Shown here: positions 6,161 through 21,074 of the stretch, piece by piece
How the letters are laid out: each line of letters starts with the position of its first letter
Position numbering within the stretch: position 1 is the stretch's first letter
IMG/VR virus record: IMGVR_UViG_3300030105_001443
Location: 1 to 21,074 of that record
Source of the DNA: a virus
Reading direction: 5' to 3' (one strand)
DNA: 21,074 nt
Translations under genes and position numbers: made by a program
Notes under the pieces: model-generated
What the model saw: the letters and a program-made list of their open reading frames with translations, nothing else
Database searches by the model: none
What the model was told of the DNA's origin: nothing

Positions 6161-9100
6161 ATGCCATCAAATTTTTATAATAACAATCTTGAAGTTGACT
6201 CCTCATTAGGACAAGTAACTGCTGAATACTATACAGCTGATGATCTTGATCGTATAAGTATTACATATGGTTATCTAGAAGATCCAGCATTTGGATTAAG
6301 TGATAAGGATAGGGTAGAGCTACATGTTTACGATATCAGCAATAACCACTTATTTTCTGATCATCAGATAGAAGGGTGGTCTATTGAATCTGATCTTGAA
6401 CAAAAACCAGTTATAGTTTTAAATGTTCGTAACGATTTAAAGGCAATAGGATTTACTAAAGGTGTATATAGAATAGTTTACAACTTCCATAGAGATGTTG
6501 TAGGTAGAAATCTAGGGCCTAAGTTTGAAGTTAAAACAATAAGTTCTGATAGAAAGGAGGTAAGATTAGTACCATTAACTCCTGCAGATAGTGAAGCATT
6601 TGAATCAAACGAGTTAGATGATTTTTATAGTGACTTTCAGCAATTAATGCAATCATCTGGAGTATCTGGTCCATTTACTGGCCCTTCAATCTCTAATAAT
6701 CAATTATGGACTCAACTGCACCTTAATCTAGGATATAACTTTTTACCACTAGTAGGTGCATGGGTAGTAAACGATATATTTCCACCAGATCCTCTATACC
6801 CAAATACTATACTACTAAAGTTCTATGATAAACTACCAGCATCAGTTAAACCAAAACTACGATGTTGGTTAACTGCAGAGGCATCTCAACCAGCTATTAA
6901 TAAGTGCATGCTTGACGAACCGATAATTAATGATGGTAAAACTTTAGCTAGCCCTAACTTCGATTTATGTTTAGATAGTACACCTAGGGTACAGACAGCT
7001 CATAAAACACAAGCTGAAATATTAGGTAGTGAATCTGATTTAGCTAATGAATTAGTTAATGCATACTCCTCTAGTAGAGAAGGTGTAACACTTAATATTG
7101 ATTACTCTATATTAGAAAACTATGTACATTTCAGCTCAGCGGAACAGCGATTAGATAATTTTATATATAAACTAAAGTTAATTAATGGATACGATACTAG
7201 AGCTAGGGATTTTGATTATAGTGAATTTTCATCTCAAGATGTTTATATATACGAGTATACAGGCTCGCATGGCTCGGTACATACTAAAAGATATCAAAGG
7301 CGTTGGGTTAATAAAAAACTTGATTTAATAAATAATTTTGATGACTGGGAAAAGTGGTTATACTTTGACAGTGGGTCACAGGAATCATATATAACAACTA
7401 CTGGTTCGCGAGGAGGTGGTGAGTATGACTGGTCAAGATCAGCTATTACACCATTCCCTAAACTATCCGGATCATATAAAAATGATTTATGGACAGAGGA
7501 TTATTTAGAATGGAATGTCGATCAATTATTTGACTGGGCAGTTCACAGTATATTTATACCAGGACCTAACTACGAATTACTACACCTAACATCATCTAAA
7601 TCTGCTAACTGGTTATCTATAGCTAGAACAACAGCTAGTGCTTATGATAGACATAATCCAAATATTTTACGAAAAACTGTACCTGAATACTTAAGTGATG
7701 TAGGTAAGGATGCAAATGAAACATACCTACGATTTACAGATATGGTTGGTCAAGCCCATGATATACCGTGGACTTATACAAGAGCGTTTACAGATAAAGC
7801 AAGTAGACTTCATAATGAAAATTATAAAAATAACAGTGGAATGTCCGACGATATATTATATCACGTTGGTAAATCACAAGGTATTGAATTTGTTGATGGC
7901 GATCCAAATCAGCAGCTATGGGAATATAAACTAGGTAAAGATTCAGAAGGATTTGTTAAGCAAAATGCTCCTACTGCATCTATAAAGACTATGCCAGCTA
8001 AACAGCGAACAAGAGAAGTATGGAGACGTATATTAAACAACCTTCCGTTCTTACTCAAATCAAAAGGTACGCGAATGGGTATCCGTGGTTTAATAAACTG
8101 CTATGGAGTACCAGAGGAAGTATTACCAATATATGAGTACGGGTCAAGTAAGCAGAGTGATCAAACTACATTATATGAAGAACAACATTTTAAATATTGT
8201 TTAAATTTCCATAAAAGTCAATCAGTATCAACATACTGGGGCCCTCATCATAGAACTACACACGTTACTTCGAGTGCAATAACACCTAATGCTGTCGAGT
8301 TTAGAATGTTCCCTAATGCTAACACTCCTGCTTATAGTCAATCTCTGTGGCAAGTAGATAACAGAGCAGGTATACGATTACATAGGAGTTACAGTAGTGC
8401 AGTCAAGCTAAATGGACAACCAGAAGCATTTACAGAATACGGACACTTTAGTTTAATACTATCAAGCTCACAAGGGTATGTATCTGCATCAACTGGAAAA
8501 GCTAAAATTTTCCAAGAGAGTAATATTCGTAGAGCTGGAGATGGTTGGTGGACTGTCTTGCTTAATAGAGTACCTAATAACAAAAAGCAAACCCCGTATG
8601 GTGCATATCATAGTGCTAGTATGTTTAATTACACACTAACTGCAGTCAGAGCAGAGTACGGTACTGTAGATCAAGCTGTATCGTGTAGCTTTCAAGTAAC
8701 TGGAGCTACTAACTACCACTCTGCATCAATGAATCAATCATATTCTGGTAGCCTAGAGTCAGGTAGACGAGCATATCTAGGAGGATTTGTAACTACTAGT
8801 GGTAATTATTATGGCTCACAAAATCATAAAATATTTGGAGATCCATTTAGCGGATCAATGCAGGAATTAAGATATTATGCAGCTGCTATATCCCATTCAG
8901 TTCTAGTAAGCCACACACTAGCACCAGAAATGTATTCATCTAATAACGCATTAAGTACTTATAGTGATTTATTATTAAGATTAAAATTAAGTGACAGGGT
9001 TAATCACTATAGTGGAAGTGTCCAATCACCTTCATCATCTCAACTTATACAGAATCTAGCTCCTGACCAACAATCATCAAGTTTAAATTTTGGTAATACT

Positions 9101-15960: not shown

Positions 15961-16371
15961 ATGGCAAGAAAAATTTCAAAAGCGAGAGCAAATGCTATCA
16001 AGCATGGTTATAGGAGCGGATTCGAACACACCGTATCTAAAGAACTTACTGAAGCAAAAATTAAATTCGAATACGAAGTAACTGTAATCCCATATATAAA
16101 ACCAGAAACTAATCATACATACACTATAGATTTTACTTTACCTAATGGTATTTTAGTAGAAACAAAAGGTAGGTGGGTATTAGAAGATCGTAAGAAGCAT
16201 TTACTTATTAGAAAGCAACACCCTACATTAGATATCAGGTTAGTATTTCAAAACTCTAAAGGCAAAATACGTAAAGGTTCTAAAACTACATACGCAGATT
16301 TCTGCAATAAGAATAATATTACCTGGGCAGATAAGCAAATACCTACCTCATGGTATACTGAAAAAAACTAG
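15961..16371 (+). CDS. T7-type endonuclease I (Holliday junction resolvase)
   Basis: At 136 residues this is close to T7 gp3 (149 aa) and collinear with it. The catalytic set is in place: E22 in YRSGFE, D57 in HTYTIDFTLPNG, and E67 and K69 in VETKG. The T7 residues are E20, D55, E65 and K67, so the spacing is identical. The flanking RKKHLLIRKQHPTLDIRLVF and the late ADKQIPTSWY blocks also follow T7 gp3. The family acts as a domain-swapped dimer that cuts four-way and other branched DNA before packaging, and in T7 it also degrades host DNA. T4 uses the unrelated endonuclease VII (gp49) for junction resolution. The gene opens the DNA-metabolism block, just before primase and the Mre11/Rad50 fusion, and lacks an obvious ribosome site. 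The assignment is firm. Confidence 0.95.
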   Translation: MARKISKARANAIKHGYRSGFEHTVSKELTEAKIKFEYEVTVIPYIKPETNHTYTIDFTLPNGILVETKGRWVLEDRKKHLLIRKQHPTLDIRLVFQNSKGKIRKGSKTTYADFCNKNNITWADKQIPTSWYTEKN

Positions 16372-16412: not shown

Positions 16413-17333
16413 ATGCTTAAAAAACTTCAAACATTACTTGAGTCTTTACTTAGTAGAGGTAGAACATTACAAAATGATGAAGTAGCATTTAATTGTATAT
16501 TTTGTCATCACTCAAAGAAAAAATTACAAGTTAATTTACGCACACAAATGTGGCAATGCTGGGTATGTGGGGTTAAGGGTAGAAGTATATACCACCTGTT
16601 TAAGAAGCTTAAAGCATCAGCAATACATTTCGAGAAACTTCAACAATTCACTGGGTATGCACCTATACAGCCTAAAAAGAAAGCATACGACGATTTAACA
16701 CTCCCTGAGGAATTTAAAACCTTCCTGCAGGTCGAGAAAGGTAATCCTGAATTTCATAACGCTCTCGGTTATCTAAGAAAGCGTGGCTTGACTCGAGAAG
16801 ATATATTAAGGTATAATATTGGTTACTGTGAGACAGGGCAATACAGTAAAATGGTTATAATACCAAGTTATGATGAAGATGGTATACTAAACTTCTTTAC
16901 GGGTAGATCATATTATACTGATGCTACATTTAAACATAAGAATCCTAAAGTATCTAAAGATATTATAGGTTTTGGATTGTATATAGACTGGGAATATCCC
17001 ATCACAGTAGTAGAGGGAGTATTTGACGCTCTTGCGGTAAAACGTAATGCAATACCTTTATTTGGTAAAATAGTGTTAGAGAAACTTAAAAAAGCAGTAG
17101 TACAAAATAATGTTAAACATATCAATATAGCATTAGATAAGGATGCAAGAGCAAAAGCTCTTCAAAGTTGTGAATACTTTATCAATAATGGTGTAACGGT
17201 TAATTTAATAGATTTAGATGAAGAGGATCCAAGTGACTTAGGATTTTCCGGAATTACAACAATAATACAGGAAAGTGTAGCATTAACATCATACGAGTTA
17301 ATGGAGATGAAGATTAAGGAGAAGATGATTTGA
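16413..17333 (+). CDS. 61: DNA primase, DnaG/T4 gp61-like
   Basis: At 306 residues this is near T4 gp61 (342 aa). The N-terminal zinc-binding domain has C28-x2-C31 and C49-x2-C52 (NCIFCHH ... WQCWVCGVKG). A linker and core follow, with LRKRGLTREDILRYNIGYCE at about residues 121-140, typical of DnaG-like primases. The TOPRIM catalytic fold then shows VVEGVFDALAV with E201, and ALDKDARAK with D242 and D244. Such a protein makes RNA primers for lagging-strand synthesis, working with a separate replicative helicase. No helicase domain is fused and none is encoded in the window. ATG 16413 has no Shine-Dalgarno site and is preceded by AT-rich sequence with a TATTAT at 16404-16409. Its TGA (17331-17333) overlaps the TTG start of the next gene, indicating translational coupling. 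Confidence 0.92.
   Translation: MLKKLQTLLESLLSRGRTLQNDEVAFNCIFCHHSKKKLQVNLRTQMWQCWVCGVKGRSIYHLFKKLKASAIHFEKLQQFTGYAPIQPKKKAYDDLTLPEEFKTFLQVEKGNPEFHNALGYLRKRGLTREDILRYNIGYCETGQYSKMVIIPSYDEDGILNFFTGRSYYTDATFKHKNPKVSKDIIGFGLYIDWEYPITVVEGVFDALAVKRNAIPLFGKIVLEKLKKAVVQNNVKHINIALDKDARAKALQSCEYFINNGVTVNLIDLDEEDPSDLGFSGITTIIQESVALTSYELMEMKIKEKMI
17316..17321 (+). promoter_or_regulatory. Ribosome-binding site that fixes the TTG start of the nuclease fusion
   Basis: AAGGAG lies in the last codons of the primase gene, 8 nt before TTG 17330, which overlaps the primase TGA as TTGA. This strong site supports the unusual TTG start over later in-frame start codons, which would cut into or remove Mre11 motif I (D19, H21). 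Confidence 0.75.
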
Positions 17334-20300
17334 TTAAGATAGATGTAGGATTTAACAAAGTAGAGTGCATAGCACATATAGCTGATGTACATATAAGGAA
17401 CTTGAGACGTCATGATGAGTATAAGCAAGTATTTATAAAACTCTATAAAGACTTGAGGGATAATCTACCAGAAAATTCCTTAATATATTTAGCAGGTGAT
17501 ATAGCTCACGCTAAAACAGAGATGAGCCCTGAGCTTATACAGATGACTAGTGATCTATTTACAGAGTTAAGTAATATAGCTCCTACTATTCTTATAGCCG
17601 GTAATCATGATTGTAACTTAAATAATAAGAGTAGGTTAGATGCATTATCACCTATTGTAGATTCTCTTAATTTAGATAACTTTTATTACCTTAAAGACAA
17701 TGGTATATATGAGATAGCTGATTGTGCATTCAATGTAATGTCGGTATTTAACCAACCGGAAGATTATATACTATCTAAAGATATTAAAACCGAAAAAACT
17801 AAATTAGCTTTATACCACGGTTCAGTAGAGAGTGCAACTACCGATGTTGGGTTTAAACTTCCAGGTGAAGTTACAACTGATTTATTCAACGGATACGATA
17901 TGGTGCTGTTAGGTGATATACATAAGCAACAATACCTTAACAAAGCTAAAACTATTGCGTACGCAGGTTCTCTGGTATGTCAGAATTGGGGTGAACATCC
18001 TACTAATCATGGATATATATTATGGGATGTAAAAAAACGTAAACCTGAATATAGGATTATTGAAAACGATTATGCTTATGTAACTTTAGAGATAGAGGAA
18101 GGCAAGATTGTAAATGAGATCCCGATGCCTAAATACCCGAGATTACGAATTAAGGTATGTAAGACAGAAGAATCTCAACTAAAGAAAATTCTTACTGAAG
18201 TACGTAAAACTTCTAAACTGAAAGATGTTGCTATTATTAGAACTGATAGATTATCATCTCAAAAGAGTGGAGATAGAAATTCTAAAGATGCTGGACTAGG
18301 TGATGTCAGAGACACTAACTATCAGAATAAATTAATTGTTGATTATTTAGAACGTAATTTTGTTTTAGAAGATGATACAATTAAAACTATAAAAAAAATT
18401 AATAAGGAATTAAATAGCATTATACCACAAGCAGAGATGTTTAGGAACTTAACCTGGAAACCTATGAAGTTTGAGTTTAGTAATATGTTTAGTTACGGTG
18501 AAGATAATTCAGTTAACTTCTCTAATATGAAAGGTGCTTATGGTTTATTTGCTCCTAATGCAGCTGGTAAGAGTGCTTTACTGGACGCTTTAACATACTG
18601 TCTATTTGATAAATGTAGTAGATCATCACAAGCAAGGGATGTTATGAATAGTGAGAAGACTACATTTCACTGTAAGTTACATTTTAAGATAGACGGACAA
18701 GATTATTTTATTGAGCGAAAGGGTAGTAAAGGACTAAAAGGTTGGAAGGAAGGAAAATACTCAGTAAAGGTTAATTTCTGGACATTAGATGAACAAGGTA
18801 GTGAGGTATCACTAAATGGAGAAGCTAGATATGATACTAATAAATTAATTAGTTCACATGTTGGACACTTTGAAGACTTTATCCTAACATCCTTATCGCT
18901 ACAAAATAATAATACTGGTTTTATAGATAAGTCGCAGTCAGAGAGAAAGGACTTATTAGCACAATTCTTAGATATAAAAGTATTTGATGATCTATGGAGA
19001 GCAGCTAATGATGAAATAAAGGATGTAAGTGCATTATTAAAGGACTTTAAAAAGACTGACTTCACACAGCAATTAGCAGATGCAGAGACAGAGCTTGAGA
19101 TAAAGCGTGAACGTAAGCAAGAGGTTAAAAAATCTTCTAGTTCATTAACAGGTAAGATAGATACCTTAGATAAACGTATTACAACACTTCAATCTAAAAT
19201 AATAGAAATAGAGTCAGTTAACGAGGATCTTGATTCGATGAAAACTCAGCATGCACGTTATATTACTCAAGTAGAAGAAATAACTAACAGGTTACATTCT
19301 GATGAAGCTATTGCGATAGAGAATAAAGAGAAGATACGAAAAGCAAATACTATACTTGAGCAGTATAATATCTCTGAAGTTGAAGATATTTTCAAGATAC
19401 TAACTAGTAATCGTGAAGTAGTTAAAGAGTTAAAGGCAGAGCGAGATCGTATCAAAGTCGACGTTAAGTATAAATTAGAAAAGCTAGAAGCTAGTAACAG
19501 TGCATTTGACCCTAGCTGTAATTTTTGTAAGGAACGTGAAAGTGCATCTATAAAGATACAAGAAGATACTAGAATTAGTCTAGAGCAGGATAAAATAAAA
19601 GCAGATACAGTAATTCAGAAGATAAATGAGTGTGAATGGTATATATCTAATAATATTGGTATTGAAGAAGATTATAGTAAAATTATTAAAGTAAATAATT
19701 TATTATCCACTATTGAGCGAGAGCGAAATGTAGGTAGGATCGCTTATTATAGAGCTAAAGAAAAGTGTGATGGTATTCAACAGAGTATAGCTAAGATTGA
19801 ATCTGCTATGAAAAAGTATCATGAAAATAAAAAAGCTATTATTCATAATAATAAAACTAACGAGCAGATTAGTGAGTTGAGTGGAAAGAGTGATGAACTT
19901 GTTGATACTAAAGTTGGAATAGATGAGGAGTTTATGACACTTCATGGAGCTATTGAAGTTGCTTTTTCTACTAAAAATACTATAACTCAATCTATTAAAA
20001 AAGCTGAGGAACTAGAGCAGAAGTTTAAAGCTTATGAATACTATCTAGATGCTGTACAGAGAGACGGTGTCCCTTATGAACTAATTACAAAGGTAATACC
20101 TATCATTGAAGAAGAAGTTAACGATATACTAGCTCAAATAGTCGAGTTTAAAATTATGTTTGAATTAGATGGTAAGAGTATTAATACATATATAGTATAT
20201 AGTGAAGATAAAACTTGGCCATTAGAGCTAACATCAGGTATGGAGAAGTTTATATCCTCTCTAGCTATCAGAACAGCCCTAGTTAATGTATCTAACTTAC

Positions 20301-20506
20301 CCAGACCCAACTTTCTAGCTATCGATGAAGGGTTAGGTAACCTCGATTCAGAGAATCTTAATTCATTATTTATGTTATTCACCTTCTTAAAATCACAGTT
20401 CGACTTACTTATGATTATAAGTCACCTAGATTCTGTACGAGATGTCGTAGATAATTTAATTGATATTAAAAAAGTTGAAGGTTTCTCTAAAATTACCCAT
20501 GAATAA
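17330..20506 (+). CDS. Single-chain Mre11-Rad50 (gp47-gp46 / SbcD-SbcC) fusion, 1058 aa
   Basis: Both partners of the DNA-end-processing nuclease are in one reading frame. Residues 1 to about 340 are the Mre11/gp47-type phosphoesterase: D19 and H21 (ADVHIRN), D57 (LAGDIAH), N92, H93 and D94 (AGNHD), H163 (YHGS) and D196/H198 (GDIHKQQ). Residues from about 377 are Rad50/gp46: KFEFSNMFSYGE, Walker A at 408-415 (APNAAGKS), coiled coil, a zinc hook at C730-N-F-C733, and a second coiled coil. The C-terminal half has signature LTSGME (967-972), Walker B LAIDEG with D999/E1000, D-loop GNLD (1003-1006) and H1032. T4 encodes these as separate genes 47 (339 aa) and 46 (560 aa). In T4 the complex resects DNA ends for recombination-dependent replication and helps degrade host DNA. 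The join (about 340-376) is a helical, charged linker with no stop or slippery signal. TTG start, coupled to primase. Confidence 0.93.
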   Translation: MIKIDVGFNKVECIAHIADVHIRNLRRHDEYKQVFIKLYKDLRDNLPENSLIYLAGDIAHAKTEMSPELIQMTSDLFTELSNIAPTILIAGNHDCNLNNKSRLDALSPIVDSLNLDNFYYLKDNGIYEIADCAFNVMSVFNQPEDYILSKDIKTEKTKLALYHGSVESATTDVGFKLPGEVTTDLFNGYDMVLLGDIHKQQYLNKAKTIAYAGSLVCQNWGEHPTNHGYILWDVKKRKPEYRIIENDYAYVTLEIEEGKIVNEIPMPKYPRLRIKVCKTEESQLKKILTEVRKTSKLKDVAIIRTDRLSSQKSGDRNSKDAGLGDVRDTNYQNKLIVDYLERNFVLEDDTIKTIKKINKELNSIIPQAEMFRNLTWKPMKFEFSNMFSYGEDNSVNFSNMKGAYGLFAPNAAGKSALLDALTYCLFDKCSRSSQARDVMNSEKTTFHCKLHFKIDGQDYFIERKGSKGLKGWKEGKYSVKVNFWTLDEQGSEVSLNGEARYDTNKLISSHVGHFEDFILTSLSLQNNNTGFIDKSQSERKDLLAQFLDIKVFDDLWRAANDEIKDVSALLKDFKKTDFTQQLADAETELEIKRERKQEVKKSSSSLTGKIDTLDKRITTLQSKIIEIESVNEDLDSMKTQHARYITQVEEITNRLHSDEAIAIENKEKIRKANTILEQYNISEVEDIFKILTSNREVVKELKAERDRIKVDVKYKLEKLEASNSAFDPSCNFCKERESASIKIQEDTRISLEQDKIKADTVIQKINECEWYISNNIGIEEDYSKIIKVNNLLSTIERERNVGRIAYYRAKEKCDGIQQSIAKIESAMKKYHENKKAIIHNNKTNEQISELSGKSDELVDTKVGIDEEFMTLHGAIEVAFSTKNTITQSIKKAEELEQKFKAYEYYLDAVQRDGVPYELITKVIPIIEEEVNDILAQIVEFKIMFELDGKSINTYIVYSEDKTWPLELTSGMEKFISSLAIRTALVNVSNLPRPNFLAIDEGLGNLDSENLNSLFMLFTFLKSQFDLLMIISHLDSVRDVVDNLIDIKKVEGFSKITHE

Positions 20507-20551: not shown

Positions 20552-21074
20552 ATGGCACAAAATATAGTAAACACATATCCCTCTAATGGAGGTGGTAAGG
20601 AAATACGTAGATACACAGTAGCTATTCCTAAAAATTTGTTAGGAATGCAGATACCAATTAATGACTCTTCATCTTGGAGCCCATATTACTTTGGTGTTAT
20701 ACGAAAACCATCTAAATTAAAGTTAGGTGGTAATATCTTTGAATTCCTACCACATCCAAATCGGTTTGTTCCAAATACTCAGATATTGTTTGAAGCAGTT
20801 GATAGTCAAAGAAAACAACTTCCTTACGAAATATTGAAAAAGGGGCATGGAGGAGCTATCCGAATTTGTGTATGGGTAGATGATAAGACTCCAATAGGAA
20901 AAGCTTCTATTACATTAGTAGGGGAAGTAGCATACGATGATTGTGGCTGCCCGGTTACAGAAGAATGGGTAGATAAACCTAATGTACGTTGGTCTGATAT
21001 TATACATGTTGATGATAATGATATATCAGATGTAATTGAATATGTAACTACACCGCACGCAACTATTGAAGAAG
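20552..21074 (+). CDS. Probable virion structural protein, N-terminal fragment
   Basis: An open frame starts at ATG 20552 and runs off the window after 174 complete codons without a stop. The product begins MAQNIVNTYPSNGGGKEIRR and is beta-rich. It has blocks such as WSPYYFGVIRKPSKLKLGGN, PNTQILFEAVDSQRKQLPYE and AIRICVWVDDKTPIGKASIT, then LVGEVAYDD. The 'ILFEAVDSQ..LPYE ... PIGKASITLVGE' pattern resembles Ig-like or fibronectin-like modules found, from memory, in large phage structural proteins; I cannot name the protein. Two cysteines close together (DDCGCPV) are noticeable in this otherwise Cys-poor part. It follows the nuclease fusion after 45 nt and has the late-type motif upstream, so it is probably the first gene of another structural block. 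No strong ribosome site is visible. Confidence 0.8.
   Translation, partial: MAQNIVNTYPSNGGGKEIRRYTVAIPKNLLGMQIPINDSSSWSPYYFGVIRKPSKLKLGGNIFEFLPHPNRFVPNTQILFEAVDSQRKQLPYEILKKGHGGAIRICVWVDDKTPIGKASITLVGEVAYDDCGCPVTEEWVDKPNVRWSDIIHVDDNDISDVIEYVTTPHATIEE

Follow-up and report, generated by a model that had tools for sequence, protein, structure and literature searches.

A one-chain Mre11-Rad50 gene beside a primase and an exchangeable nuclease gene in T4-like phages

Introduction

Most organisms build the Mre11-Rad50 complex from two separate proteins. The gene studied here joins both in one polypeptide and lies at positions 17330 to 20506 of a 21,074-nucleotide stretch of viral DNA (IMG/VR record IMGVR_UViG_3300030105_001443, positions 1 to 21,074), which we call the window. 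This architecture has been known since 2011, when Yoshida, Claverie and Ogata (PMC3175470) described fusions in Mimivirus (R555), in bacteria, plasmids and eukaryotes and in the Bacillus phage 0305phi8-36. A first-pass annotation of the window, made from its letters alone, had cautioned that such fusions might already be catalogued, and the caution was justified. The 2011 report also found ocean fragments with fusion homologues beside primases and T7 gp3-like endonucleases, predicted marine phage carriers from these short pieces and asked for longer reads. The window is such a marine phage carrier at full length. Full-length contigs support the phage ownership; they show a large group of T4-like phages whose fusions form one clade and have a stable neighbourhood. 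We favour, with a probability of about 0.8, the reading that this is the gene of a T4-like tailed phage for a single-chain Mre11-Rad50 (SbcDC) of the kind seen in Mimivirus R555, which would form a 2:2 head and resect DNA ends for recombination-dependent replication.

The described systems share different parts of this picture. Like the window protein, Mimivirus R555 and other SbcDC fusions have the nuclease followed by the ATPase in one chain with a short linker, and the published R555 features, a histidine in GDxxH and an aspartate replacing the His206 equivalent, are also found here. The 2011 ocean fragments share the primases and T7 gp3-like endonucleases nearby. What distinguishes the window gene from R555 and the 2011 set is that it is full length and in context, on the contig of a T4-like tailed phage; its likeness to R555 was judged from the published residue changes and the gene neighbours. 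T4 gp47/gp46 and their cyanophage homologues have the same two enzyme activities in a T4-like phage background, but they are encoded by two genes split by small open reading frames, keep the G-H-x-H motif and, in both of the trees described below, do not group with the fused proteins. The window has one gene in place of the separate nuclease and ATPase genes of T4. With E. coli SbcCD and the archaeal and eukaryotic Mre11-Rad50 complexes it shares the fold, the motifs and the order of capping domain and helix-loop-helix; these, however, are separate proteins, and E. coli has a longer SbcC coil and a histidine at the position equivalent to 196. The jumbo phages of Tenacibaculum, Chryseobacterium and Sphingomonas and the Microcystis phage Mel-JY01 have the fused architecture and belong to the same clade. 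The Mel-JY01 fusion is 42% identical and is neighboured by a primase and a GIY-YIG gene. The other three groups, reached only via L025, a distant relative of the window protein (23-24% identity), differ in having fusions of about 1300 residues, and the stretches read contained no primase.

Results

A single open frame encodes both enzymes

The plus strand of the window has a single open frame of 1058 codons with no internal stop, starting with a TTG that overlaps the stop codon of a primase gene.

17330 to 20506, plus strand: fused Mre11/SbcD-Rad50/SbcC gene, 1058 residues, TTG start, recognised by Pfam and PHROGs; the start region is kept in close relatives
17316 to 17321, plus strand: ribosome-binding site AAGGAG, 8 nt ahead of the TTG, an arrangement common to several close relatives

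Two Pfam domains scored better than their curated thresholds, Metallophos over residues 14-199 (E 5e-10) and AAA_23 over residues 384-625 (E 1e-11). In PHROGs, an SbcD-like family covered residues 14-366 (E 3e-29) and an SbcC-like family residues 299-1057 (E 5e-46). The frame, both sets of matches and the motifs given below confirm the first-pass proposal that the two enzyme halves lie in one continuous frame. The layout is that of R555, with the nuclease at the N-terminus, the ATPase at the C-terminus and no interruption between them. Judged from the sequence, the window gene encodes a true one-chain Mre11-Rad50.

Structure models were predicted with AlphaFold for the whole protein (predicted local distance difference test, pLDDT, 82) and for its first 384 residues (pLDDT 87). 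Together with the motifs they gave the following domains.

17330 to 18124, plus strand: Mre11-like nuclease domain, residues 1-265, from Pfam Metallophos, the motifs and the fold match to Mre11/SbcD structures
18125 to 18247, plus strand: Mre11 capping domain, residues 266-306, a predicted strand-helix-strand with pLDDT of about 90
18311 to 18421, plus strand: Rad50-binding helix-loop-helix, residues 328-364, with predicted helices 329-343 and 348-364
18422 to 18454, plus strand: inter-domain linker, residues 365-375, coil from the last Mre11 helix to the first Rad50 strand (375)
18455 to 19039, plus strand: Rad50 N-lobe with Walker A and Q-loop, residues 376-570, from Pfam AAA_23 and the motifs
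19040 to 19999, plus strand: coiled-coil arms, residues 571-890, long predicted helices
19517 to 19528, plus strand: zinc-hook CxxC, residues 730-733
20000 to 20503, plus strand: Rad50 C-lobe with signature, Walker B, D-loop and switch histidine, residues 891-1058, from the motifs and matches to solved Rad50/SbcC chains

In the capping domain, the model has a strand at 269-277, a helix at 281-294 and a strand at 299-304, followed by a disordered loop at about 307-321. When the first 384 residues were searched with Foldseek, the matches were Mre11/SbcD chains with E down to 1.5e-13. They included Mre11 chains solved in complex with Rad50/SbcC and containing the helix-loop-helix (3qg5, 3tho, 6s6v and 7yzo), and Mre11 chains from Mre11-Rad50 complexes align over about 400 columns with the window protein. 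The predicted models thus have the nuclease core, the capping domain and the C-terminal helix-loop-helix of the Mre11/SbcD fold. For the ATPase, the fold matches were 7zr1, 7yzp and 3auy. Predicted helices 551-721 and 731-909 flank C730 and C733, as in an antiparallel coiled coil with a CxxC zinc hook.

The catalytic motifs are conserved, with an aspartate at position 196

Motif conservation was scored across 40 homologues. The nuclease motifs are D19-x-H21, G56-D57-x-x-H60, G91-N92-H93-D94, H163 and G195-D196-I-H198. Residues D19, D57, N92, H93, H163 and H198 are invariant, while H60 is present in 39 and H21 in 34 of the homologues. The ATPase part has Walker A (N410-x-x-G-K-S), the Q-loop Q525, the signature S969-G-x-E972, Walker B (D999-E1000), the D-loop D1006 and the switch H1032, and with these all the motifs of Rad50/SbcC. 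Most of the fusion motifs are invariant or nearly so. In the zinc hook, C730 is found in 40/40 and C733, and hence the complete CxxC, in 39/40.

The first-pass annotation had listed all the main metal-site motifs of Mre11 as present. The motifs are indeed there and conserved, but the first histidine of G-H-x-H is Asp196 (codon 17915-17917). This aspartate was found in 43 of 44 fused phage rows, all but that of phage PAU, and in none of six split references; the same change was reported for Mimivirus R555 (Yoshida et al. 2011, PMC3175470). The change would fit a nuclease half that has lost or altered its chemistry, with the protein chiefly bridging DNA ends and not cutting them. We regard this as unlikely, since the remaining metal and catalytic residues are kept, an aspartate itself often serves as a metal ligand and the nuclease domain is under strong purifying selection. 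In a comparison with six close relatives of identical length to the window gene, the ratio of non-synonymous to synonymous substitution rates (dN/dS) was mostly 0.01-0.08 in the nuclease domain and in the ATPase part, with synonymous sites near saturation. These values point to purifying selection on both halves.

The linker is short and of constant length

Residues of about 340-376 had been described in the first-pass annotation as a short charged linker. Two predicted helices stand here at the position of the Mre11 helix-loop-helix and the Foldseek matches are Mre11 chains, therefore most of this stretch is a canonical domain, and the real linker has about 11 residues at about 365-375. It had also been argued that the contact between the Mre11 tail and the base of the Rad50 coiled coil must be rebuilt in a one-chain protein. 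The analysis gave no support for such rebuilding, since the capping domain, the helix-loop-helix and a constant short linker stand in canonical order. The stretch of residues 345-376 has a length of 31-34 residues in all 40 homologues. Yoshida et al. (2011, PMC3175470) calculated that a linker of 9-12 residues spans the gap of about 28 Å in the Thermotoga complex.

The linker is also the most relaxed stretch of the gene in sequence, with a ratio of non-synonymous to synonymous differences (pN/pS) of about 0.1-0.4. This, and the ATG codons of the window gene at residues 370, 379, 386 and 400, would be compatible with two working chains from one gene, arising through an internal start or a proteolytic cut near the linker; these chains would then act like ordinary SbcC and SbcD. 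We consider this quite improbable. None of the four ATGs is preceded by a ribosome-binding site, and M386, the one in-frame start that many homologues share, lies within the first Rad50 strand region and lacks such a site. Across the 40 homologues, none of the internal starts at residues 310-402 was both conserved and preceded by a ribosome-binding site, so that internal translation starts, which the first-pass annotation had suggested looking for near residues 365-380, were rejected. The narrow length range of the linker region also argues against two chains.

The fusion is widespread among uncultured phages

A first scan of viral contigs gave 21 relatives and a profile scan, of which the best 80 were used, gave at least 559. 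The nuclease part was borne by 92 distinct environmental or phage loci. The nuclease and the ATPase were in one frame in 89 of these and full length in 80, and a break between the halves was seen in none (0/92). In the remaining three, the contig ends inside the gene (L016 and L017) or the gene has an insertion (L024). The fusion is also present in the GenBank genomes of Microcystis phage Mel-JY01, Tenacibaculum phages pT24, PTm1 and PTm5, Chryseobacterium phages MA9V-1 and MA9V-2 and Sphingomonas phage PAU, where it is labelled 'AAA domain', 'DNA repair' or 'metallo-phosphoesterase'. The fusion is thus very common among uncultured phages.

Errors do occur in metagenomic contigs, and a sequencing or assembly error that merged two adjacent genes had been named in the first-pass annotation as the finding that would overturn the fusion. 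With at least 80 full-length independent environmental contigs and the genomes of seven named phages bearing it, the chance of such an artefact is negligible. One locus, L013, has a frameshift at about 9724 in the coiled coil of an otherwise intact fusion, away from the domain boundary, which is probably a sequencing error. In L024 (LR756508.1, a 484 kb uncultured phage), an insertion of about 1 kb at 6692-7609 splits the fusion right after the GDIHK metal motif. It holds a nuclease-like open reading frame (Pfam Tn7_TnsA-like_N, PHROG HNH endonuclease). An Rfam search for an intron in this insertion recognised none; the insertion therefore either disrupts the gene or is an intron that Rfam does not list.

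The fusion was not found in a first scan of cellular genomes. An alignment-based scan of these gave seven loci with full or partial relatives (L118-L124), all in contigs of metagenome-assembled genomes assigned to Nitrosopelagicus, Chloroflexi, Gammaproteobacteria, Pelagibacteraceae and others; most likely they are viral DNA binned with cellular genomes. The plasmid collection had two partial matches and no fusion. The Bacillus phage 0305phi8-36 was not among the tblastn matches listed.

The sampled phage fusions form one clade

Trees were calculated for the nuclease part and for the ATPase heads, with six two-gene systems as split references (T4, a cyanophage, two Herelleviridae, a Moorella phage and E. 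coli). The 34 fused rows were set apart from these references by a well supported branch (95/95 and 99/97, respectively), in trees that have only six split references and some long branches. A single origin of the sampled phage fusions is the simplest reading of these sequences. It is compatible with the finding of Yoshida et al. (2011, PMC3175470), made with a wider set including cellular and plasmid fusions, that fusions in general arose several times.

A primase and an exchangeable nuclease gene precede the fusion

Two genes on the same strand lead up to the fusion in the window.

16413 to 17333, plus strand: DnaG-like primase (PHROG 47 DNA primase, E 5e-42); its stop overlaps the fusion start
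15961 to 16371, plus strand: T7 endonuclease I-like junction resolvase (Pfam Phage_endo_I, E 1.5e-55) in a conserved nuclease slot

In 86 loci the fusion is preceded by a primase gene, which is usually adjacent to it. Ahead of the primase, exactly one gene from four nuclease clusters was found in 77 loci: a PD-(D/E)XK nuclease in 29 (Pfam PDDEXK_15; PHROG 'RusA-like Holliday junction resolvase'), T7 endonuclease I in 24, a RuvC-like nuclease in 16 and a SegE-type GIY-YIG nuclease in 8. By inspection, the slot of L087 holds an HNH-like gene, a fifth family, which brings the filled slots to 78; L084 has no gene on that strand at this position. A tree of 43 fusions shows at least 8 switches of slot type. 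The slot genes of the GIY-YIG and HNH families could encode homing endonucleases instead of resolvases. In L090, L096, L103, L105 and L106 a further gene cluster lies between primase and fusion, and its 311-residue representative in L106 looks by eye like an HNH/NUMOD homing endonuclease.

Each slot family, when looked for in 12 records of 97-211 kb, scored above threshold only where the slot holds that family, and the one exception was a sub-threshold GIY-YIG fragment in a record of the GIY-YIG slot type. T4 endonuclease VII, considered as the resolvase of the relatives, was not found in these 12 records, with T4 itself serving as the positive control. Each record has one full SbcC-type ATPase, namely the fusion. 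A RecA-family recombinase is encoded in 7/7 records of at least 132 kb.

We give even odds to the view that an abundant group of T4-like phages has a recombination cassette, consisting of a junction nuclease, the primase and the one-chain Mre11-Rad50, in which the fusion is the constant part and the nuclease slot is repeatedly refilled by unrelated T7 endonuclease I, PD-(D/E)XK (RusA/Hjc-like), RuvC-like, SegE-type GIY-YIG and HNH enzymes. On this view, the resolvase fold would be replaceable, and the fused end-processor and the primase would not. Resolvase displacement as such is already known, since in jumbo phages Iyer et al. (2021, PMC7824862) found the RuvC, endonuclease VII and RusA resolvases to be complementary. 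The literature searched had no description of a fixed nuclease slot next to the fused enzyme, and the cassette with its exchangeable nuclease is more novel than the fusion architecture. Such exchanges are a natural experiment on which properties of a Holliday-junction resolvase matter to a phage.

The GenBank note on T4 gp46/gp47 names host-DNA degradation besides recombination, and the chief job of the fusion might accordingly be host DNA degradation or counter-defence and not replication of the phage DNA. We hold this to be unlikely, as a gene that regularly accompanies those of a primase and a junction-resolvase-type nuclease is better explained by recombination-dependent replication; one role does not exclude the other. 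The best PADLOC match, LmuB of Lamassu, was rejected, since it reflects the shared SMC/Rad50-type ATPase and has no defence context.

Proposed role in recombination-dependent replication

By analogy with T4 gp46/gp47 and SbcCD, two fusion chains would most likely pair via their nuclease domains, their ATP-bound ATPase heads and their zinc hooks, giving the usual 2:2 head. In each chain, the helix-loop-helix 328-364 would clamp the base of its own coiled coil, and the 11-residue linker would lead on to the ATPase. ATP-driven opening and closing would give the nuclease access to double-strand ends for cutting and resection. The resulting 3' tails may be loaded by a phage recombinase of the RecA/UvsX type, leading to recombination-dependent replication. 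At the recombination forks the adjoining primase would prime synthesis, and the small upstream nuclease, here T7 endonuclease I-like, would resolve branched products ahead of packaging. A one-chain Mre11-Rad50 that occurs in nature is also of practical use, as its fixed stoichiometry and built-in contact should ease structural and single-molecule work on end processing.

Several observations weigh against a resecting enzyme of this kind. Asp196 stands where the characterised Mre11 proteins have a metal-binding histidine. The predicted template modelling score of the whole model is only 0.47, as expected for long flexible arms, and that the helix-loop-helix docks on the coil base is therefore an assumption. 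The fusion gene lies in the tail/head gene cluster and not, as in T4, in an early replication cluster, and the timing may therefore differ from that of T4. The record of the window is a 47.6 kb fragment, and a second, split Mre11/Rad50 elsewhere in the virus is possible.

Flanking genes

The record of the window also encodes T4-like terminase, portal, prohead protease and baseplate genes. The fusion is followed by an open reading frame of 4415 codons that begins in the window at 20552 (G000 20552-33799; L026 3553-16800). It is rich in SGNISASG-like repeats, contains four masked residues and probably encodes a giant protein of the tail-fibre type.

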